From Chryseolinea sp. H1M3-3 (GTDB taxonomy: Bacteria > Bacteroidota > Bacteroidia > Cytophagales > Cyclobacteriaceae): 64,000 bases of DNA. Both the position numbers and the translations under genes were made by a program. The notes beneath the pieces are model-generated. The model was not told the DNA's origin. It did no database searches and saw only the letters and a list, made by a program, of their open reading frames with translations. This document shows positions 44,901 through 53,619 of this stretch, in pieces; within the stretch, counting starts at the first letter, position 1, and the number at the start of each line of letters is the position of its first letter. Location of the stretch: assembly GCF_029360725.1 (NCBI RefSeq), contig NZ_JARKMY010000019.1:310001-374000 (forward strand). The letters are read 5' to 3'.

Positions 44901-47333
44901 ATGTTAAGGAATTACATCAAAATAGCTTTTCGCAATATGGCTCGCGATAAAGCCTACTCGTTTATCAATATTTTTGGCCTGACGGTCGGACTGATGTGTT
45001 GCTTATTATTAGCGCTGTACATCCAGGACGAAATGACTTATGATAAGCATCATAAAGACGTCGATAATCTTTATCGCGTTACGTCCATCATGGGGGAGAA
45101 GGCGGACCATCGAATTATGCGGACAACGTCTGCGCCCATTGTGTGGGGGATAAAAGACGAGATTCCGGAAATTGATGCGGTTACCCGTTTGGTAAATCCG
45201 CCAGGTGTATCGCAGAATCTTATCCGATATGAAGACCATCAATTCTATGAGTCGGATGGCTATATTGCGGACTCCACCTTGTTTAAAATATTCAATTATG
45301 ACTTTAAGGAAGGCAATCCTGATAAAGCACTTGTAGAGGCAAATAGTGTGGTCATCACTGAGCGTCTTGCCACCAAACTTTTTGGTCATGAATCTGCCCT
45401 GAATAAAATCATTTATATCAATCAGGGAGGGCCCTCAGCCGATTTCAAAGTCACCGGTGTATTGGCAGCCAAGCAGAAAAATTCCCACATCGAAGCCAAT
45501 TTCTTCGTGTCTATGACCAGCAGTGGATGGGCGGAATATTTGCGCAGTCCACAAGTATTAGATGAATGGGCGGGTCAAAACTTTATGCTTTCTTACGTTA
45601 AGTTAAATGAGGGGCATACGGCTGAAAGCGTACTGCCTAAAATGAACGAAGTGTTTATTAAACATGGCGCCGACGACTTGAAAGTGCTGGGAATGAAAAA
45701 GACTCTCGGTCTTGAACCGGTTAAGGATATTTACTTGTATTCAACTCCCGGCGACAGTAGCCCGCGCGTGACCTATCTCTATGTGATTGGCTCTATCGCT
45801 GGAGTTATTCTGTTAATTGCCTGTATAAACTTCATGAACCTCAGTACAGCGAAAGCTACCAAACGTGCCAGTGAAGTCGGATTGCGAAAAACACTGGGCG
45901 CTTACCGGAGCTCGTTGATTACTCAATTTCTTGGCGAAGTCATGGTGATTGTTACCATCGCTATTTTATTAAGTGTCGTACTCATGCAGGTTATGCTGCC
46001 CATTTTTAATCAGCTTACACAAAAACAAATCAGCTTTGATGCTGACAACCTATTCTTCTTTTCGACTACACTTGTCGTCATAACAGTAGTTACAGGGTTG
46101 GCCGCGGGAAGTTACCCTGCATTTTATCTCTCTTCTTTCCAACCTGCCAAAGTTTTGAAAGGTAAGTTTGCCCTGAACAATTCCGGAGGTCTTTTACGTA
46201 AGTCATTAGTCGTTTTTCAATTTGTTGTAGCCATCGTATTGATATGCGGCATGATGGTTATTTCCCAGCAATTGAATTTTATGCAGTCAAAAGATCTTGG
46301 CTTTCAGTCTAAGCAAAAAATTATTTTACCATTGCGGACTGAGACGGCCCATAAAAATCATCAATCACTGAGGAATGAATTGTTAAAAATTCCGTCGATA
46401 AAAGATGTTACAGCAACAAACTACGCACCCGGTTCTTATGTATGGACGGATTTTACACTGTATCCTGAGGGATCAAACATGGAGAAAGGTGTGATGGTAA
46501 AAAACAATTGGGTCGAACCGAACTATCTTGATGTGCTGGACATCAAGATAATCGCAGGCCGGAATTTTACGGATAACAGGGAATCGGAAAGCCAAAATAA
46601 AATTATATTGAACCGTATCGCCGTCCGTCAGTTGGGATTCGAACCCGAGACGATTGTTGGGCAAAACCTTTATAGCGAAGGACAATCTGGCCTTCGTACC
46701 TACGAAGTCATAGGAGTGATGGAAGACTTTCATCAGATTACCGTGAAGGAAGCCGTGTTTCCTATGCTGGTTCGCCTACCATTGGAGGTGACAGAGCACG
46801 ATCATTTGGTACTCGATATTCATCCGGATAATTTTCAGGAAAGCATTGGTCAGATTGAAGGAACGTGGAAACAAATCAATGCCGATACGCCTTTTGAATA
46901 TTCCTTTTTAGATGATGACATCAGAAAACAATACGAAGAAGACAAGCGTGTATCCCGGACGATAACAGGCTTTACAATTATTGCTATGATCATTTCGAGC
47001 CTGGGACTTTATGGTCTTTCTACCTATATGGCTGAAAGAAGGTTTAAAGAAATTGGTGTGAGAAAAGTGATGGGAGCCAGTGTTAACGAGATTATGACGA
47101 TGATGTCTTCTGAGTTTGTGCGGCTAGTTGTCATTGCATTCGGTATCGCTGTACCACTGTCGCTTTACGGAATTCACAAATGGTTGGAAAACTTCGCGTA
47201 CAAAACCCCGGTAAGTATATGGATATTTATCGTGGCAGGCGTCAGTGCGTTGTTAATCGCTGTTCTGACGATAAGTTTTCAATCTTTCAAAGCTGCCTCG
47301 GTAAACCCAATCAACTCGCTGCGTACAGAATAA
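44901..47333 (+). CDS. Large FtsX/MacB-type permease (no ATPase domain)
   Basis: This 810-residue permease is of the double-module type common in Cytophagales. The first helix (21-41) comes after NYIKIAFRNMARDKAYSFIN, then a large MacB-type periplasmic domain (50-260) and an FtsX helix block (285-410). A repeat of the whole unit begins at about 425 with LLRKSLVVFQFVVAIVLIC and ends with helices at about 690-800 and the tail SFKAASVNPINSLRTE. It should be an exporter or a mechanotransmission protein partnering an ATPase; the nearest candidate is at 41115. It ends 48 bases from the end of the convergent RidA gene. Confidence 0.9.
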   Translation: MLRNYIKIAFRNMARDKAYSFINIFGLTVGLMCCLLLALYIQDEMTYDKHHKDVDNLYRVTSIMGEKADHRIMRTTSAPIVWGIKDEIPEIDAVTRLVNPPGVSQNLIRYEDHQFYESDGYIADSTLFKIFNYDFKEGNPDKALVEANSVVITERLATKLFGHESALNKIIYINQGGPSADFKVTGVLAAKQKNSHIEANFFVSMTSSGWAEYLRSPQVLDEWAGQNFMLSYVKLNEGHTAESVLPKMNEVFIKHGADDLKVLGMKKTLGLEPVKDIYLYSTPGDSSPRVTYLYVIGSIAGVILLIACINFMNLSTAKATKRASEVGLRKTLGAYRSSLITQFLGEVMVIVTIAILLSVVLMQVMLPIFNQLTQKQISFDADNLFFFSTTLVVITVVTGLAAGSYPAFYLSSFQPAKVLKGKFALNNSGGLLRKSLVVFQFVVAIVLICGMMVISQQLNFMQSKDLGFQSKQKIILPLRTETAHKNHQSLRNELLKIPSIKDVTATNYAPGSYVWTDFTLYPEGSNMEKGVMVKNNWVEPNYLDVLDIKIIAGRNFTDNRESESQNKIILNRIAVRQLGFEPETIVGQNLYSEGQSGLRTYEVIGVMEDFHQITVKEAVFPMLVRLPLEVTEHDHLVLDIHPDNFQESIGQIEGTWKQINADTPFEYSFLDDDIRKQYEEDKRVSRTITGFTIIAMIISSLGLYGLSTYMAERRFKEIGVRKVMGASVNEIMTMMSSEFVRLVVIAFGIAVPLSLYGIHKWLENFAYKTPVSIWIFIVAGVSALLIAVLTISFQSFKAASVNPINSLRTE

Positions 47334-47381: not shown

Positions 47382-47897
47382 TTAGTATACTGCGACGATT
47401 TCGATTTCAATGAATCTGTCCGGGTTAACCAGCTGGGCTACGCCAATGGTCGACCGCGACGGCTTAATTGGATTATCTTTCGTCCCGAAATATTGTCCGT
47501 ACGCATCAAACCATCCTTGAAAATCCATCTTGCCTGTCTTGGTGTCGGGGGCAACATATACACGCATGAACACAATGTTGCTTAAACTTAGGCCTTCTTT
47601 ACCCAAGTCGGTTTTAAATTTTTCCAGTATACCAAGCGCTTGAGTTTTCGTATCACCATAACGTTCTCTTGAGCCATTTGCTGCAGTCGAGTCAACGACG
47701 GGACCCAACGTTCCCGATGAGTAAAAATATTTCTTTCCCGCCGGTATGGTCACCGAAGATGAAATCGCAGATGTCGGGTTTCCCCGGTAAATTACTTTAT
47801 CATTTTTATTAGGAAGTGTTTGTGCTGCGAGTGTAGCTATAGTTGATGCACCAATATACAGTGACATAAAAGTCCGAGCAAACGAAATCGTTTTCAT
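47382..47897 (-). CDS. Exported RidA-family (YjgF/UK114) enamine/imine deaminase
   Basis: This 171-residue protein has an added signal peptide (about 1-25, MKTISFARTFMSLYIGAS.. ending LAAQ) before a complete RidA fold. The substrate-binding Arg of active RidA is kept as Arg148 in KPSRSTIGVAQL, and Glu residues in FIEIEIVAVY match the conserved acidic site. RidA hydrolyses reactive 2-iminoacids and enamines to ketoacids and ammonia. Export is unusual. It is divergent from an exported D-amino-acid-oxidase-like protein, 232 bases away, whose expected products are iminoacids. Confidence 0.88.
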   Translation of the reverse strand: MKTISFARTFMSLYIGASTIATLAAQTLPNKNDKVIYRGNPTSAISSSVTIPAGKKYFYSSGTLGPVVDSTAANGSRERYGDTKTQALGILEKFKTDLGKEGLSLSNIVFMRVYVAPDTKTGKMDFQGWFDAYGQYFGTKDNPIKPSRSTIGVAQLVNPDRFIEIEIVAVY

Positions 47898-48129: not shown

Positions 48130-49302
48130 ATGAAAAACAGAAGAAAATTTCTTCAACTATCGGGCGTGCTTGGTGCAGGACTGTTGACTGGCATAGCAAC
48201 AGCATGTACATCACCGAAAATCTCGCAGAAGTATATCGACCGGAATTTCATCGCATCAAACAAATTTAAACGGTATCCGAAACTTGAGATTTCCCTCGAC
48301 AGAATTGTAAAAGAAACGGTTGGCTTAAGGCCATTTAGAAAGAAAGGATTTCGAGTCGAAAAAGAAGAACTCGGTAGTAAGACAATTATTCATAATTACG
48401 GACATGGTGGGAGCGGATGGTCTCTAAGTTGGGGAACAGCAAAACTTGCCGTAGACCTTGCTCAAACTTCAGGAGAGAAATCATTTGCAGTATTGGGATC
48501 CGGGATTGTCGGAATTACAACAGCCAGGACGTTGCAAGAGCACGGCTTTCAAGCTACCATTTATACGAAGGCACTTCCTCCTCTGGTAACGTCTAGCAAA
48601 GCTACTGGGACGTGGTCTCCTGCGTCACGACTTATTGAAGCGCAATACCTTACTCCGGATTTTGAAGAACGATGGAGAAAAACCGCAATGTATTCGTTTC
48701 GGACGTATCAAAATCTCTTAGGCTTCAATGACATTGTTACCTGGATCGACAATTACATTGTCCGGGAGAAATTTAATCCGGAGCCAGAACCGTTGGATAC
48801 CGACGGAGGGAAATATGCCCGTTTGAGAATAGCAGGAATTTTACCTGAGCGGCAGGTACTGGAACAGAAAGATCATCCCTTTCATGTCGACAAAGTTGTG
48901 AAGCAGACCACCCTTGTGTTTAACATTCCGTCCTACATCAATAAACACCTAAATGATTTTCTTGCCTTTGGAGGAAGGGTAGTGATAAAGGAATTTAAGT
49001 CCCTGGAGGATATCGACGCGCTTCAGGAGAAATGCATTGTTAATTGTACAGGCCTTGGGTCCATGACATTATTCAACGACAATGAAATGCTTCCGATTGC
49101 AGGACAACTTTCGTTCTTAATACCTCAGCCTGATTTCAATTATAGAATCAGTACGGACAACGGATACGCTATACCGAGAAAGGATGGAATTATATTGGGA
49201 GGCAATGCGCTGGAAGGTAGTTGGACAGAAACTCCCGATCGCGCACAAACTGAAAAAGTTGTTCAGGCACTAACGGATGTGATGCACAGAATACGGGCAT
49301 AA
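48130..49302 (+). CDS. Tat-exported, circularly permuted D-amino-acid-oxidase-like flavoprotein
   Basis: This 390-residue protein starts with a Tat signal (KNRRKFLQLSG) with a lipobox-like TAC, Cys26. Motifs of the DAO family occur in the wrong order. VGLRPFR (64-70), which in D-amino-acid oxidase holds the carboxylate-binding Arg near the C-terminus, and HNYGHGGSGWSLSWG (88-102), normally the last FAD motif, come first. Then follows the Rossmann motif GSGIVG (123-128), which normally starts the protein. The chain ends after GYAIPRKDGIILGGNALEG and a helix, where the usual enzyme would go on to VGLRP. Oxidation of an amino acid is likely; the substrate is unknown. Confidence 0.85.
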   Translation: MKNRRKFLQLSGVLGAGLLTGIATACTSPKISQKYIDRNFIASNKFKRYPKLEISLDRIVKETVGLRPFRKKGFRVEKEELGSKTIIHNYGHGGSGWSLSWGTAKLAVDLAQTSGEKSFAVLGSGIVGITTARTLQEHGFQATIYTKALPPLVTSSKATGTWSPASRLIEAQYLTPDFEERWRKTAMYSFRTYQNLLGFNDIVTWIDNYIVREKFNPEPEPLDTDGGKYARLRIAGILPERQVLEQKDHPFHVDKVVKQTTLVFNIPSYINKHLNDFLAFGGRVVIKEFKSLEDIDALQEKCIVNCTGLGSMTLFNDNEMLPIAGQLSFLIPQPDFNYRISTDNGYAIPRKDGIILGGNALEGSWTETPDRAQTEKVVQALTDVMHRIRA

Positions 49303-49935: not shown

Positions 49936-51954
49936 CTATTCAGGACCACTGAGACGTGGCAATTTTACTGTAAAAACCGAACCAACGCCCACTTTACTTT
50001 TCAATTCTACCGATCCGTGTAACCGATCGACCGACCTTTTTAAAATATAGAGACCCAAGCCTGAGCCTGTGGCATTGCTGGTAGCCCTGAAAAACATCTC
50101 GAATATTTTCGGCTGGTGATGATCAGGTATACCCTGACCGTTGTCTTCGACGGCTAGCAGTATATGATCCTGATGGTCTGTTACTCGGATGTTAACATAT
50201 GGTGTATTTTCGTTTGAATACTTAATGGCGTTCTCAATCAGATTTTGCATAATTGCATTCAATAGTGTCCATTCGGAATGAAAGTCGATATCGGGTTGAA
50301 TGTGTTTGTTAAAAGAGACTTTATCATAGTTCGGAAGACTCTCAAATGATGCGATGCAACCATCGATCATTTTGTGGAAATCTATTTTTTGTTTTCGCAG
50401 GTTATCATGACTCAACTTGGTTAAGTTTATCAATCCACTGATAATTTGATTCAAGCGTTCAACTTGCTGATATTGTTTATTGATGTAATCCAGTGCGATT
50501 GGATCTTTGATGTCAATCTTTGCTAAAAACGACAGACCGAGTAATGATGAAATAGGTCCTCTCAGATCGTGCGCGATCCGGTGGAAGAAAGTATCCAGTT
50601 CGGCATTTTTATTTTCGATAATTTCAGTTTGCTGTTGATTCTTTTCCAGTGTTGAATGCAGTTCTTCGTAGGCTTTAGATAGTTGTTCAGTACGAACCAT
50701 TACTTTTATTTCCAGTTGTTCTGTCGCCTCCTGCTGTACTTTCAATGCCATCAATTGGGCATCTTCCTTTTCCTTTTTAAACCGCCGGTATTGATCACCC
50801 AAGGCAAACGCAATGATGATCGTTTCTAATGCTCCACCAATTTCTACAAAATGGGTTGTCCAGAAATTAAATTCAAAAACGCCACTGTTACGCAACGTCA
50901 GTAATAGTCCTCCAACAAAGTAAAAGGTCCATGCGGCAATAAAGAAGTTTGCCGTTTTGTTTCCCTTAATTCTGCAGACAACGCCAGTGATCATGAACAA
51001 GATGGTGCCTAATGTTATCAAATTGTTTCCTGCGGAAGAGACGACATCGGTAGCCACGAGGATGTTGGCGACGATGCCAAGGGGTATCAACGGAACTAGG
51101 GTATAATACATGATTTTAGAATGTTGTTTTACTTCTAAAAACCGTATTGTGAAAATTGTAAAGACGATGGTCAGAACCCCCATTGACATTCTGCCGGCAT
51201 AAAAATTTAAACTGGGGTTTTCTGGCCAAAGGAATTTGCCACCATATCCGGTCGCCGATAAAAATATAATGATCGTGCAAAGGATAGTAAAAATGTATAA
51301 TAAATAATTTATCTCCTTTAGTGTCAGGTAGAGAAGGAGATTATAAAACATCATTACAATTAAAATCCCATAAAATACTCCGTAGCCGATATCTTCAATT
51401 CTTACCTTCTCGTGGAATCGTTCTTTTCCAAGAACATGCAAAGGGAAGGTCTTGGGACTTTTGCCATCGATCCTGATAAAAATGGTGTTCTCAGATTTGG
51501 CATCAAACAGTAGCGGAACTACGTGCCCTGTGTGTGAGATTATTTTTTCACTTTGTTTTCTGTAGTAGCCGGCAGTAGCATGCTGCCATGTGCCGTCACC
51601 CTTTCGTTGATAGAAATCAACATACTCCAGGTAGGGCGCAGGTATTTCGAGATACCATTGGGTTAATTTGATTGGCGATTTCATTTTCAGGCGCAGCCAT
51701 ACCGAAGAACGGGTGTAGCCGAATGCCAGATCTTTCGCAGGATGAAAGCGTTGCTGAATGACAGGGTCGATCACTTGTTCTAAGGACATGGTATTACTGG
51801 AATCCATCAGTACATCGACATATGTATCCAGCCTATAGATTAAAGTTGTATCTGTTAGCACAAAGGTCGTGTCAGCGACAGGCGTTGCATAGGAAGCAAA
51901 CTGATGGAATAGCGCGATAAATAAATATAACTTGAAGTTAAAACAATGGCGCAT
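49936..51954 (-). CDS. 7TMR-DISM sensor histidine kinase
   Basis: This 672-residue kinase has a signal peptide (1-23), an extracellular 7TMR-DISMED2-like beta domain (about 30-180, with SSVWLRLKM and WYLEIPAPYLEYVDFYQR), seven transmembrane helices (about 190-390), a coiled coil, then the kinase core: FFHRIAHDLRGPISS with His462, the N-box NLIENAIKYSN, DNGQGIP and GSGLGL. The extracellular domain is expected to bind carbohydrate-like ligands. It has no partner regulator next to it. The LytTR regulator at 53644 belongs with the LytS-type kinase. Confidence 0.92.
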   Translation of the reverse strand: MRHCFNFKLYLFIALFHQFASYATPVADTTFVLTDTTLIYRLDTYVDVLMDSSNTMSLEQVIDPVIQQRFHPAKDLAFGYTRSSVWLRLKMKSPIKLTQWYLEIPAPYLEYVDFYQRKGDGTWQHATAGYYRKQSEKIISHTGHVVPLLFDAKSENTIFIRIDGKSPKTFPLHVLGKERFHEKVRIEDIGYGVFYGILIVMMFYNLLLYLTLKEINYLLYIFTILCTIIIFLSATGYGGKFLWPENPSLNFYAGRMSMGVLTIVFTIFTIRFLEVKQHSKIMYYTLVPLIPLGIVANILVATDVVSSAGNNLITLGTILFMITGVVCRIKGNKTANFFIAAWTFYFVGGLLLTLRNSGVFEFNFWTTHFVEIGGALETIIIAFALGDQYRRFKKEKEDAQLMALKVQQEATEQLEIKVMVRTEQLSKAYEELHSTLEKNQQQTEIIENKNAELDTFFHRIAHDLRGPISSLLGLSFLAKIDIKDPIALDYINKQYQQVERLNQIISGLINLTKLSHDNLRKQKIDFHKMIDGCIASFESLPNYDKVSFNKHIQPDIDFHSEWTLLNAIMQNLIENAIKYSNENTPYVNIRVTDHQDHILLAVEDNGQGIPDHHQPKIFEMFFRATSNATGSGLGLYILKRSVDRLHGSVELKSKVGVGSVFTVKLPRLSGPE

Positions 51955-52182: not shown

Positions 52183-53619
52183 ATGCGAACACTTTTATGG
52201 CTAATGTTGGCCTTGATTGTTAACAACAGTCAGGCCCAATCAACAAGACCTAACATCATCATCATATTCATGGATGACATGGGTTATGGTGACATCGAGC
52301 CCTTCGGCATGACTGGGCTTTCAACACCGAACTTCAACAGACTCGCAGCGCAGGGCCTAAGGTTAACGAATTTTAATGTAGCCCAAGCGGTGTGTACAGC
52401 ATCACGGGCAGCCTTACTCACGGGGTGTTATCCCAACCGGTTAGGATTGACAGGCGCATTACTGCCGGAATCAAAAGTAGCGCTTCATCCGCAAGAGCAG
52501 ACCATCGCTTCTCTTTTGAAAAGCAACGGTTATGCCACAGCAATTTTTGGTAAGTGGCATCTCGGAAACCGGCCACCTTATTTTCCGTTGCGATATGGTT
52601 TTGACTCGTTTTATGGATTGCCTTATTCGCATGATATCTGGCCGCTTGACTACCAGGGGAATTTGATCACCGATACCAGCAACAGGCGGAGTAAATGGCC
52701 ACCATTACCCATTATTGAAAATGATAAACAAATAGGAACCATTACTTCATTAGAGCAGCAAACACATTGGACAACATCGCTTACGGAGCGGGCAGTCTCT
52801 TTTGTCAAAAGCCACACACAAGAGCCGTTCTTTCTATATGTAGCCCATCCGTTACCACATGTTCCTCTGGCGGTATCGGAGAAGTTCAAAGGAAAAAGCG
52901 ACCTTGGTCTTTTTGGCGACGTGGTCATGGAGCTCGATTGGTCATTGGGTGAGATCATGAAGGTATTGGATAATCAGAAGTTGACCGAGAATACCATATT
53001 AATTGTGACCAGCGATAATGGTCCCTGGGTACATTTCGGTAATCACGCAGGATCAAGTGGCGGCCTTCGAGAAGGCAAGGGTACACCATTTGAGGGAGGT
53101 ACGCGTGTACCTTTTTTGATGCGGTGGCCCGGTAGGATAACACCGGGAAGTGTAAGTGGAGCGTTACTAACGAGCATGGATTTACTGCCTACGATATGTG
53201 CCCTTACAAAATCAAATCTACCTTCAAAAAGAATTGACGGCGTAGATTGTTCTGACTTTCTTCTCAGAAAAACCAACAAGAGTCCGAGAGAGGTTTTCTA
53301 CTATTATTATGGCAACAAACTGATGGGGGTGAGATACAAGCACTGGAAATTAATTTTGCCACATGAGTCGCAATCGTACGTTCATGGCGGCGCAGTGGGT
53401 AAAGATCGCATCCCTGGAAAATTCAATGCAAGCACTTCGGTTCACGGAGGATTATACGATCTTGCGCATGATCCGGGAGAAGTGTATGACATCAGTTCGC
53501 TTAATCCGGATATCGTTGAACAAATAATGAAATATGCCGAAGCGGCGCGTGAAGACCTGGGCGATGAAATTACAGGCACGAAGGGAAACAACATCCGTCC
53601 TCCGGCAACGGTAGATTAG
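52183..53619 (+). CDS. Exported type I sulfatase (arylsulfatase family)
   Basis: This 478-residue enzyme has a signal peptide of about 18 residues (ending NNSQA). The sulfatase signature begins at Cys71 in CTASRAALLTG (CxAxR), where Cys is turned into formylglycine. PNIIIIFMDDMGYGD (23-37) holds the metal-binding Asp pair, and FGKWHLG and TSDNGP are the other active-site blocks. It removes sulfate esters from sulfated sugars or aryl sulfates in the periplasm. No sulfatase-maturing enzyme is present in the window. It is convergent with the LytTR regulator, 24 bases apart. Confidence 0.93.
   Translation: MRTLLWLMLALIVNNSQAQSTRPNIIIIFMDDMGYGDIEPFGMTGLSTPNFNRLAAQGLRLTNFNVAQAVCTASRAALLTGCYPNRLGLTGALLPESKVALHPQEQTIASLLKSNGYATAIFGKWHLGNRPPYFPLRYGFDSFYGLPYSHDIWPLDYQGNLITDTSNRRSKWPPLPIIENDKQIGTITSLEQQTHWTTSLTERAVSFVKSHTQEPFFLYVAHPLPHVPLAVSEKFKGKSDLGLFGDVVMELDWSLGEIMKVLDNQKLTENTILIVTSDNGPWVHFGNHAGSSGGLREGKGTPFEGGTRVPFLMRWPGRITPGSVSGALLTSMDLLPTICALTKSNLPSKRIDGVDCSDFLLRKTNKSPREVFYYYYGNKLMGVRYKHWKLILPHESQSYVHGGAVGKDRIPGKFNASTSVHGGLYDLAHDPGEVYDISSLNPDIVEQIMKYAEAAREDLGDEITGTKGNNIRPPATVD

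Follow-up and report, generated by a model that had tools for sequence, protein, structure and literature searches.

A naturally circularly permuted D-amino-acid-oxidase-fold protein with a putative twin-arginine signal and a Rid-family neighbour in Chryseolinea sp. H1M3-3

The D-amino-acid oxidase (DAO) fold typically has one linear order, with the Rossmann block and its GxGxxG motif standing before a C-terminal block that carries FAD and substrate residues. In human D-amino-acid oxidase (DAAO), we take R283 to be the carboxylate-binding Arg and Y228 to be the active-site Tyr. Flavoproteins that act on amino acids have been connected with Rid proteins in several ways: UK114 is reported to hydrolyse the imino acids that L- or D-amino acid oxidases produce (PMC5979572), Rid genes cluster with those of FAD-dependent amine oxidases (PMC4433059), and Rid2 and Rid3 proteins deaminated in vitro the iminoarginine that DauA, a D-arginine dehydrogenase, releases (PMC5619798). 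The last study classes PFL_1385 and PSPTO_3006 as Rid3. No permuted D-amino-acid oxidase was described in the titles and abstract openings of part of the matches in the open-licence full-text literature, which is weak evidence of absence. A search of the same literature for exported D-amino-acid oxidases gave no paper on a permuted one either, and a term search for 'permut' found no occurrence in PMC9844085 or PMC4699246.

We analysed a stretch of 64,000 nucleotides from Chryseolinea sp. H1M3-3 (NZ_JARKMY010000019.1, positions 310,001 to 374,000), here called the window, which encodes a DAO-fold protein with this order reversed (Table 1). Its DAO fold has thus been circularly permuted in nature. 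An initial annotation had proposed a circular permutation with a Tat/lipobox N-terminus, and the permutation is upheld by chain rotation, by a block swap against Pfam, by the element order of two AlphaFold2 (AF2) models and by the breadth of the relatives.

Table 1. Coordinates of the permuted gene, its parts and the Rid-family neighbour within the window.
Feature	Position	Strand	Basis
Rid-family (Rid3-like) protein, probably exported, probable imine deaminase partner	47382..47897	-	divergent; PF01042
Permuted DAO-fold flavoprotein, 390 aa	48130..49302	+	ORF, PF01266, rotation test, AF2 model
Twin-arginine signal (RRKF) and lipobox-like end ATAC, Cys at residue 26	48130..48207	+	TIGR01409; ATAC by eye
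Former C-terminal block, now first: residues 59–112, with R67 and HNYGHGG 88–94	48304..48465	+	phmmer, AF2
Five-residue joint 113–117, former C-terminal helix to Rossmann beta-1	48466..48480	+	DSSP of AF2 model, rotation optimum
Former N-terminal and central part: Rossmann beta-1, GSGIVG 123–128, substrate domain, Y346	48481..49299	+	phmmer, AF2, rotation

Permuted order of the DAO fold

The ORF is intact from ATG to TAA with 0 internal stops. Its motifs stand where the initial annotation had placed them, with VGLRPFR at residues 64–70, HNYGHGG at 88–94 and GSGIVG at 123–128, and the chain ends at the point where a classic chain continues into VGLRP. In a phmmer search against solved chains, residues 59–112 aligned with 320–373 of 7ct4 and residues 237–377 with 142–297, that is, in swapped order. 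When the blocks were exchanged, the PDB search gave one main aligned piece (7ct4 142–372). The Pfam model PF01266 (DAO; cut-off 27.9) matched the native chain in two stretches with 100.9 bits (1.4e-28), and the swapped chain in one stretch with 110.7 bits, covering positions 3–353 of 353. A profile search with the segments swapped had been proposed from the start as a check, and it turned the two DAO stretches into one full-length match. Among 25 NCBIfam models listed for the protein, the cut-off was reached by the general Tat signal model only.

The rotation test used a profile (length 322) of 20 classic-order relatives (L026–L029, L032–L047), against which every third rotation of the mature part of 54 permuted proteins was scored; L048, the second copy of L001, was excluded. 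The window protein scored 139.0 bits in its native order (profile 4–261) and 217.9 bits when rotated (profile 4–317 of 322). The best start is the first residue of the joint, 10 residues before GxGxxG, and the gain of 79 bits at this point argues against chance. The best single-domain score rose on rotation in 54 of 54 proteins, with best starts 7–13 residues before GxGxxG; in two of them, L013 and L024, the best domain after rotation was the later part of the profile only (from 135 and 132, respectively). As a control, each of the 20 classic proteins was scored against the profile minus itself, and the maximum gain for any rotation was 2.7 bits. The largest shifts in best start among these (75, 60 and 27 for L029, L041 and L045) brought 1.4, 0 and 0 bits.

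AlphaFold2, with an input alignment of 26 permuted proteins, gave a confident model of the window protein (mean pLDDT 85.9, pTM 0.84), in which the segments of ≥3 residues with pLDDT <50 are 10–35, 37–46 and 221–223. The former C-terminal block comes first, as strands 59–70, 75–81 and 84–90 and helix 100–112, followed by strand 118–122 and further elements up to a last helix at 371–386. The classic relative L032 (input alignment of 13; pLDDT 91.6, pTM 0.90) starts with beta-1 and ends with strands 261–271, 276–279 and 285–289 and helix 292–314. These four terminal elements are the same four that stand at the front of the window protein. According to the models, the new chain ends fall in the old loop preceding the long strand, and five residues join helix 100–112 to beta-1.

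A predicted fold unlike DAO, named at the outset as a result that would speak against the permutation, was not seen. The Foldseek matches of the window model at ranks 1–25 are mammalian DAAO and human D-aspartate oxidase (E 7.4e-16 to 1.2e-13), and human DAAO ranked first for both the window and the L032 models. On 4qfd_A the window model gave a partial sequential alignment (TMq 0.54, TMt 0.65, E 7.4e-16), whereas L032 aligned over the whole chain (TMq 0.86, TMt 0.85, E 8.2e-27). A partial fit for the permuted and a whole fit for the classic model is what a permutation would predict, while Foldseek by itself does not place the second block.

In an alignment to human DAAO 6kbp, counted by hand, R67 corresponds to R283 and Y346 to Y228. 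One of the Foldseek matches, 4yjd, is titled as a Y228L/R283G variant. The 59 permuted sequences compared, the window protein included, all share R67, R70, H88, Y90, H92, G93, G94 and the three Rossmann glycines; 57 have Y338 and 58 have R350. At the position of Y228 only 25 of the 59 have Tyr (12 have Asn, 11 Ser and 11 other residues), and substrates may therefore differ widely.

Relatives, descent and export signals

Relatives were sought with a back-translated pattern scan of one genome per species (84,980 species), which reaches close relatives only and thus gives a lower bound. It returned 29 loci, of which L001–L025 are permuted and L026–L029 classic. In a sample of 395 genomes from the window's phylum, 17 matched at E 1e-10; full-length permuted-type matches came from two (the window's own genome and G190), and the other 15 gave partial matches, their 16 fetched loci (L032–L047) having the classic order. 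The sample of the window's order contained 43 genomes out of 390 with an oxidase match at E 1e-20, counting a weak partial match in G602 and a broken copy in G465. The latter copy (G465:C116:15680-16750) has eight in-frame stops and adjoins a stop-free Rid gene.

By record title, the permuted sequences come from six phyla, namely Bacteroidota, Acidobacteriota, Gemmatimonadota, Pseudomonadota, Planctomycetota and Actinomycetota. Similar permuted sequences had been mentioned for other Bacteroidota in the initial annotation; they are present there but are not confined to that phylum. The order is also found in the named isolates Bauldia litoralis, Alteromonas lipolytica, Asticcacaulis sp. and Henriciella mobilis. 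On plasmids, the permuted gene was found in Bradyrhizobium, Niveispirillum, Rhizobium, Nonomuraea and Kozakia; the copy on a Mesorhizobium plasmid is frameshifted. With annotated plasmid copies named only FAD-dependent oxidoreductase, and with the broken DAO match of the window protein in domain tools, the rearrangement is easily missed.

Two loci carry tandem copies. An Acidobacteria MAG (L005:4777-8385) has three tandem homologues of the permuted gene, and L001, labelled Thalassovita (Pseudomonadota), has two tandem permuted genes near genes that look SusC/SusD-like by eye. The label of L001 looks wrong, because in the tree its sequence falls among those of the window's order, and the same gene pair is found in G584 of that order.

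Two trees were built from de-permuted prokaryotic sequences, both with the classic sequences taken as outgroup. The first (45 permuted and 25 classic sequences, the latter L026–L029, L032–L047 and L081–L085) has one branch dividing permuted from classic (SH-aLRT 88). In the second, where the four longest-branch classic rows had been removed (45 permuted and 21 classic), the 45 permuted sequences form one group (97/88) that recurs in 98% of 200 bootstrap trees, and within it the 36 members scored as exported make up a single nested group (100/99). Since the exported members nest within the permuted group, the permutation probably preceded export. With the classic outgroup, the simplest history was probably a single permutation in a cytoplasmic enzyme and then a single gain of export.

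The N-terminus of the window protein reached 18.2 bits with the Tat model TIGR01409 (NCBIfam cut-off 16.7) and 15.4 bits with PF10518 (Pfam cut-off 22.7), and its genome encodes TatC. Regular expressions found RR followed by a hydrophobic run in 50 of the 59 permuted proteins and a lipobox-like Cys in 40. Of the nine without an RR signal, six belong to the Phycisphaerales clade and the other three to rhizobia and Nonomuraea. These sequence features suggest that Tat exports the permuted protein and that it is then lipid-anchored. An origin of the permutation tied to export, as a by-product of it, was rejected in view of the nine proteins without RR signal and the single nested group of exported members.

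The Rid-family neighbour and other genes of the loci

The Rid-family protein encoded beside the permuted gene, which the initial annotation had overlooked, scored 39.8 bits with PF01042 (cut-off 27.3) and 31.1 bits with TIGR00004 of NCBIfam, below the cut-off of 106.25. Its closest solved chains are PFL1385 (9bkc, E 9.2e-25) and PSPTO3006, and its N-terminus has a hydrophobic stretch that looks signal-like by eye. All 18 aligned Rid proteins of these loci have an Arg at one shared column, which presumably corresponds to the catalytic Arg105 of PMC4433059. A RidA precedent from chitin oxidation was discarded, as the deaminase OngC stands in a tree with PLP-dependent enzymes in that paper (PMC9537276).

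Within a flank of ~1.5 kb, a Rid gene lies near the permuted gene in 14 of 28 loci of the order (L031 and L049–L075; L048, from the genome of L001 and with no Rid in reach, was excluded) but in 0 of 16 classic loci (L032–L047), with a Fisher p of 0.0005 that is only a guide as the loci are related. Among the 390 genomes of the order, 43 have the oxidase, 58 have Rid (E 1e-22) and 17 have both, against 6.4 expected (p 2e-5), the overlap being counted by hand from the two match lists. The two genes are adjacent in 16 of these 17, with the matches 196–262 bases apart and either divergent (14) or on the same strand (2); in G584 they are on separate contigs. At E 1e-22, genus g235 gave no Rid match in any of its 19 sampled genomes with the permuted gene, and in the species scan Rid was in reach in only 3 of the 25 permuted loci (L002–L004). 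Conversely, the permuted oxidase is missing in 41 of the 58 genomes of the order in which Rid was matched. Inspection by eye of six such Rid-only genomes found no flavin oxidase adjoining Rid in five of them; in the sixth (L104) a similar Rid adjoins a flavin amine oxidase that carries an RR signal.

Further neighbours in the window are a MacB/FtsX-type permease (44901-47333), a 7TMR-DISM histidine kinase (49936-51954) and a sulfatase (52183-53619). Twelve wider regions, minus L095 and L098, were examined. In two of the loci (L089:2350-14873 and L002:795-12683), the permuted gene is accompanied by SusC-like (by eye) and SusD-like genes (PF12771 in L002) and by genes for a class-V aminotransferase, Rid, a flavin amine oxidase and a class-I/II aminotransferase. 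Both aminotransferases and the amine oxidase have RR signals by eye, and each locus is apparently one of exported amino-acid enzymes. PLP enzymes outside the cytoplasm are unusual. Elsewhere, a beta-eliminating lyase lies near the permuted gene in L092 (genus g235) and a cytochrome c in L080, and the signal-less Rhizobium and Nonomuraea members, from two phyla, adjoin a TPP enzyme like indolepyruvate/phenylpyruvate decarboxylase that scores below the curated cut-off (L078:4921-6705 and L079:5066-6679). These other neighbours come from single loci or close kin. No operon conserved across phyla was seen, and neighbours vary among the loci compared.

Proposed function and comparison with known systems

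We consider it likely that the protein is an extracytoplasmic amino-acid oxidase or dehydrogenase with a permuted DAO fold, whose imine product is hydrolysed by the exported Rid. The five-residue loop would have linked the ancestral C-terminal helix to Rossmann beta-1, with new chain ends created in the loop that precedes the long strand bearing the carboxylate-binding Arg, such that FAD and substrate residues would still come together in the folded protein as they do in classic DAO. After transport in the folded state by Tat, the mature protein would be anchored as a lipoprotein on the extracytoplasmic side, where it may dehydrogenate an amino acid, most likely a D-amino acid, at its alpha-carbon, passing electrons to oxygen, with formation of H2O2, or to a respiratory acceptor (O2 or cytochrome). 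The alpha-imino acid would be released and converted by the neighbouring Rid to keto acid and ammonia.

That the rearranged order is an artefact of frameshift, misassembly or fusion of two genes has a negligible probability. An assembly joint at about 48470–48500, raised in the initial annotation, is excluded by the identical block order of 58 other sequences, which keep near-constant spacing across six phyla, isolates included; the stop-free frame and the confident AF2 model argue the same way. Nothing in the window favours an artefact; among the relatives, the Mesorhizobium plasmid gene (L086:3926-4989) is frameshifted within GxGxxG and annotated as two FAD-dependent oxidoreductases. These two ORFs were rejected as a split-gene intermediate, the break lying inside GxGxxG and not at the joint. 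Also very improbable is a flavin-binding or structural lipoprotein that has lost catalysis. No activity is known and the Y228 position drifts, but R67, R70, HxYxHGG and GxGxxG are present in 59 of 59 proteins and several neighbours encode amino-acid enzymes.

Two further alternatives carry more weight, though we hold each to be rather unlikely. The same permuted fold could act on glycine, an N-substituted amino acid, an amino-sugar acid or an L-amino acid, as might be suspected from the 34 of 59 proteins where the Y228 equivalent is not Tyr, from neighbours that vary by clade and from weak matches to glycine oxidase chains. The best sequence and fold matches nevertheless come from DAAO and D-aspartate oxidase and not from glycine or sarcosine oxidase, and the window protein keeps the equivalents of both R283 and Y228. 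The Rid neighbour, for its part, could be incidental, serving other exported enzymes and lying close by common descent only. The many Rid-bearing genomes without permuted oxidase and the Rid of L104 beside another RR-signal flavoenzyme fit this; the adjacency in nearly all genomes with both genes, in two arrangements, speaks against it. An amino-acid oxidase or dehydrogenase acting with Rid is the reading we prefer. The presence of Rid next door points to oxidation of amino acids outside the cytoplasm and to removal of the imine on the spot.

More tentatively, and with somewhat less than even confidence, we propose that a single old permutation founded the six-phylum lineage. By taking the Rossmann strand off the N-terminus it would have pre-adapted the enzyme for Tat and a lipid anchor, leading to an uncharacterised extracytoplasmic oxidation route made up of the permuted oxidase and exported Rid, joined in some loci by exported transaminases and an amine oxidase. 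As a natural permutant of a textbook flavoenzyme, the protein is a ready test of how far the DAO fold tolerates a change in chain order, and its altered termini make it a new scaffold for building biosensors and biocatalysts.

Of the described enzymes, DAAO and D-aspartate oxidase (human DAAO 4qfd/6kbp, human DASPO 6rkf, fungal DAAO 7ct4) resemble the window protein in fold, FAD motifs, carboxylate Arg and HNYGHGG, whereas the latter has a permuted block order, a Tat/lipoprotein-like N-terminus and a catalysis that is predicted only. The classic prokaryotic DAO relatives (L026–L029, L032–L047, L081–L085) share the HNYGHGG-type motif but have their Rossmann block first, and no RR-plus-hydrophobic signal precedes it in translations judged by eye. 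Models of the glycine oxidase ThiO and D-amino acid dehydrogenase match the window protein partly and far below curated cut-offs (TIGR02352, 43.1 bits against 250.8). For the Rid protein, PFL_1385 and PSPTO_3006 are the closest solved relatives, and together with DauA they provide the precedent of an imine-releasing flavoprotein working with Rid (PMC5619798). That pairing was tested in vitro, whereas here the genes for a permuted flavoprotein and for Rid lie side by side and both products are probably exported.
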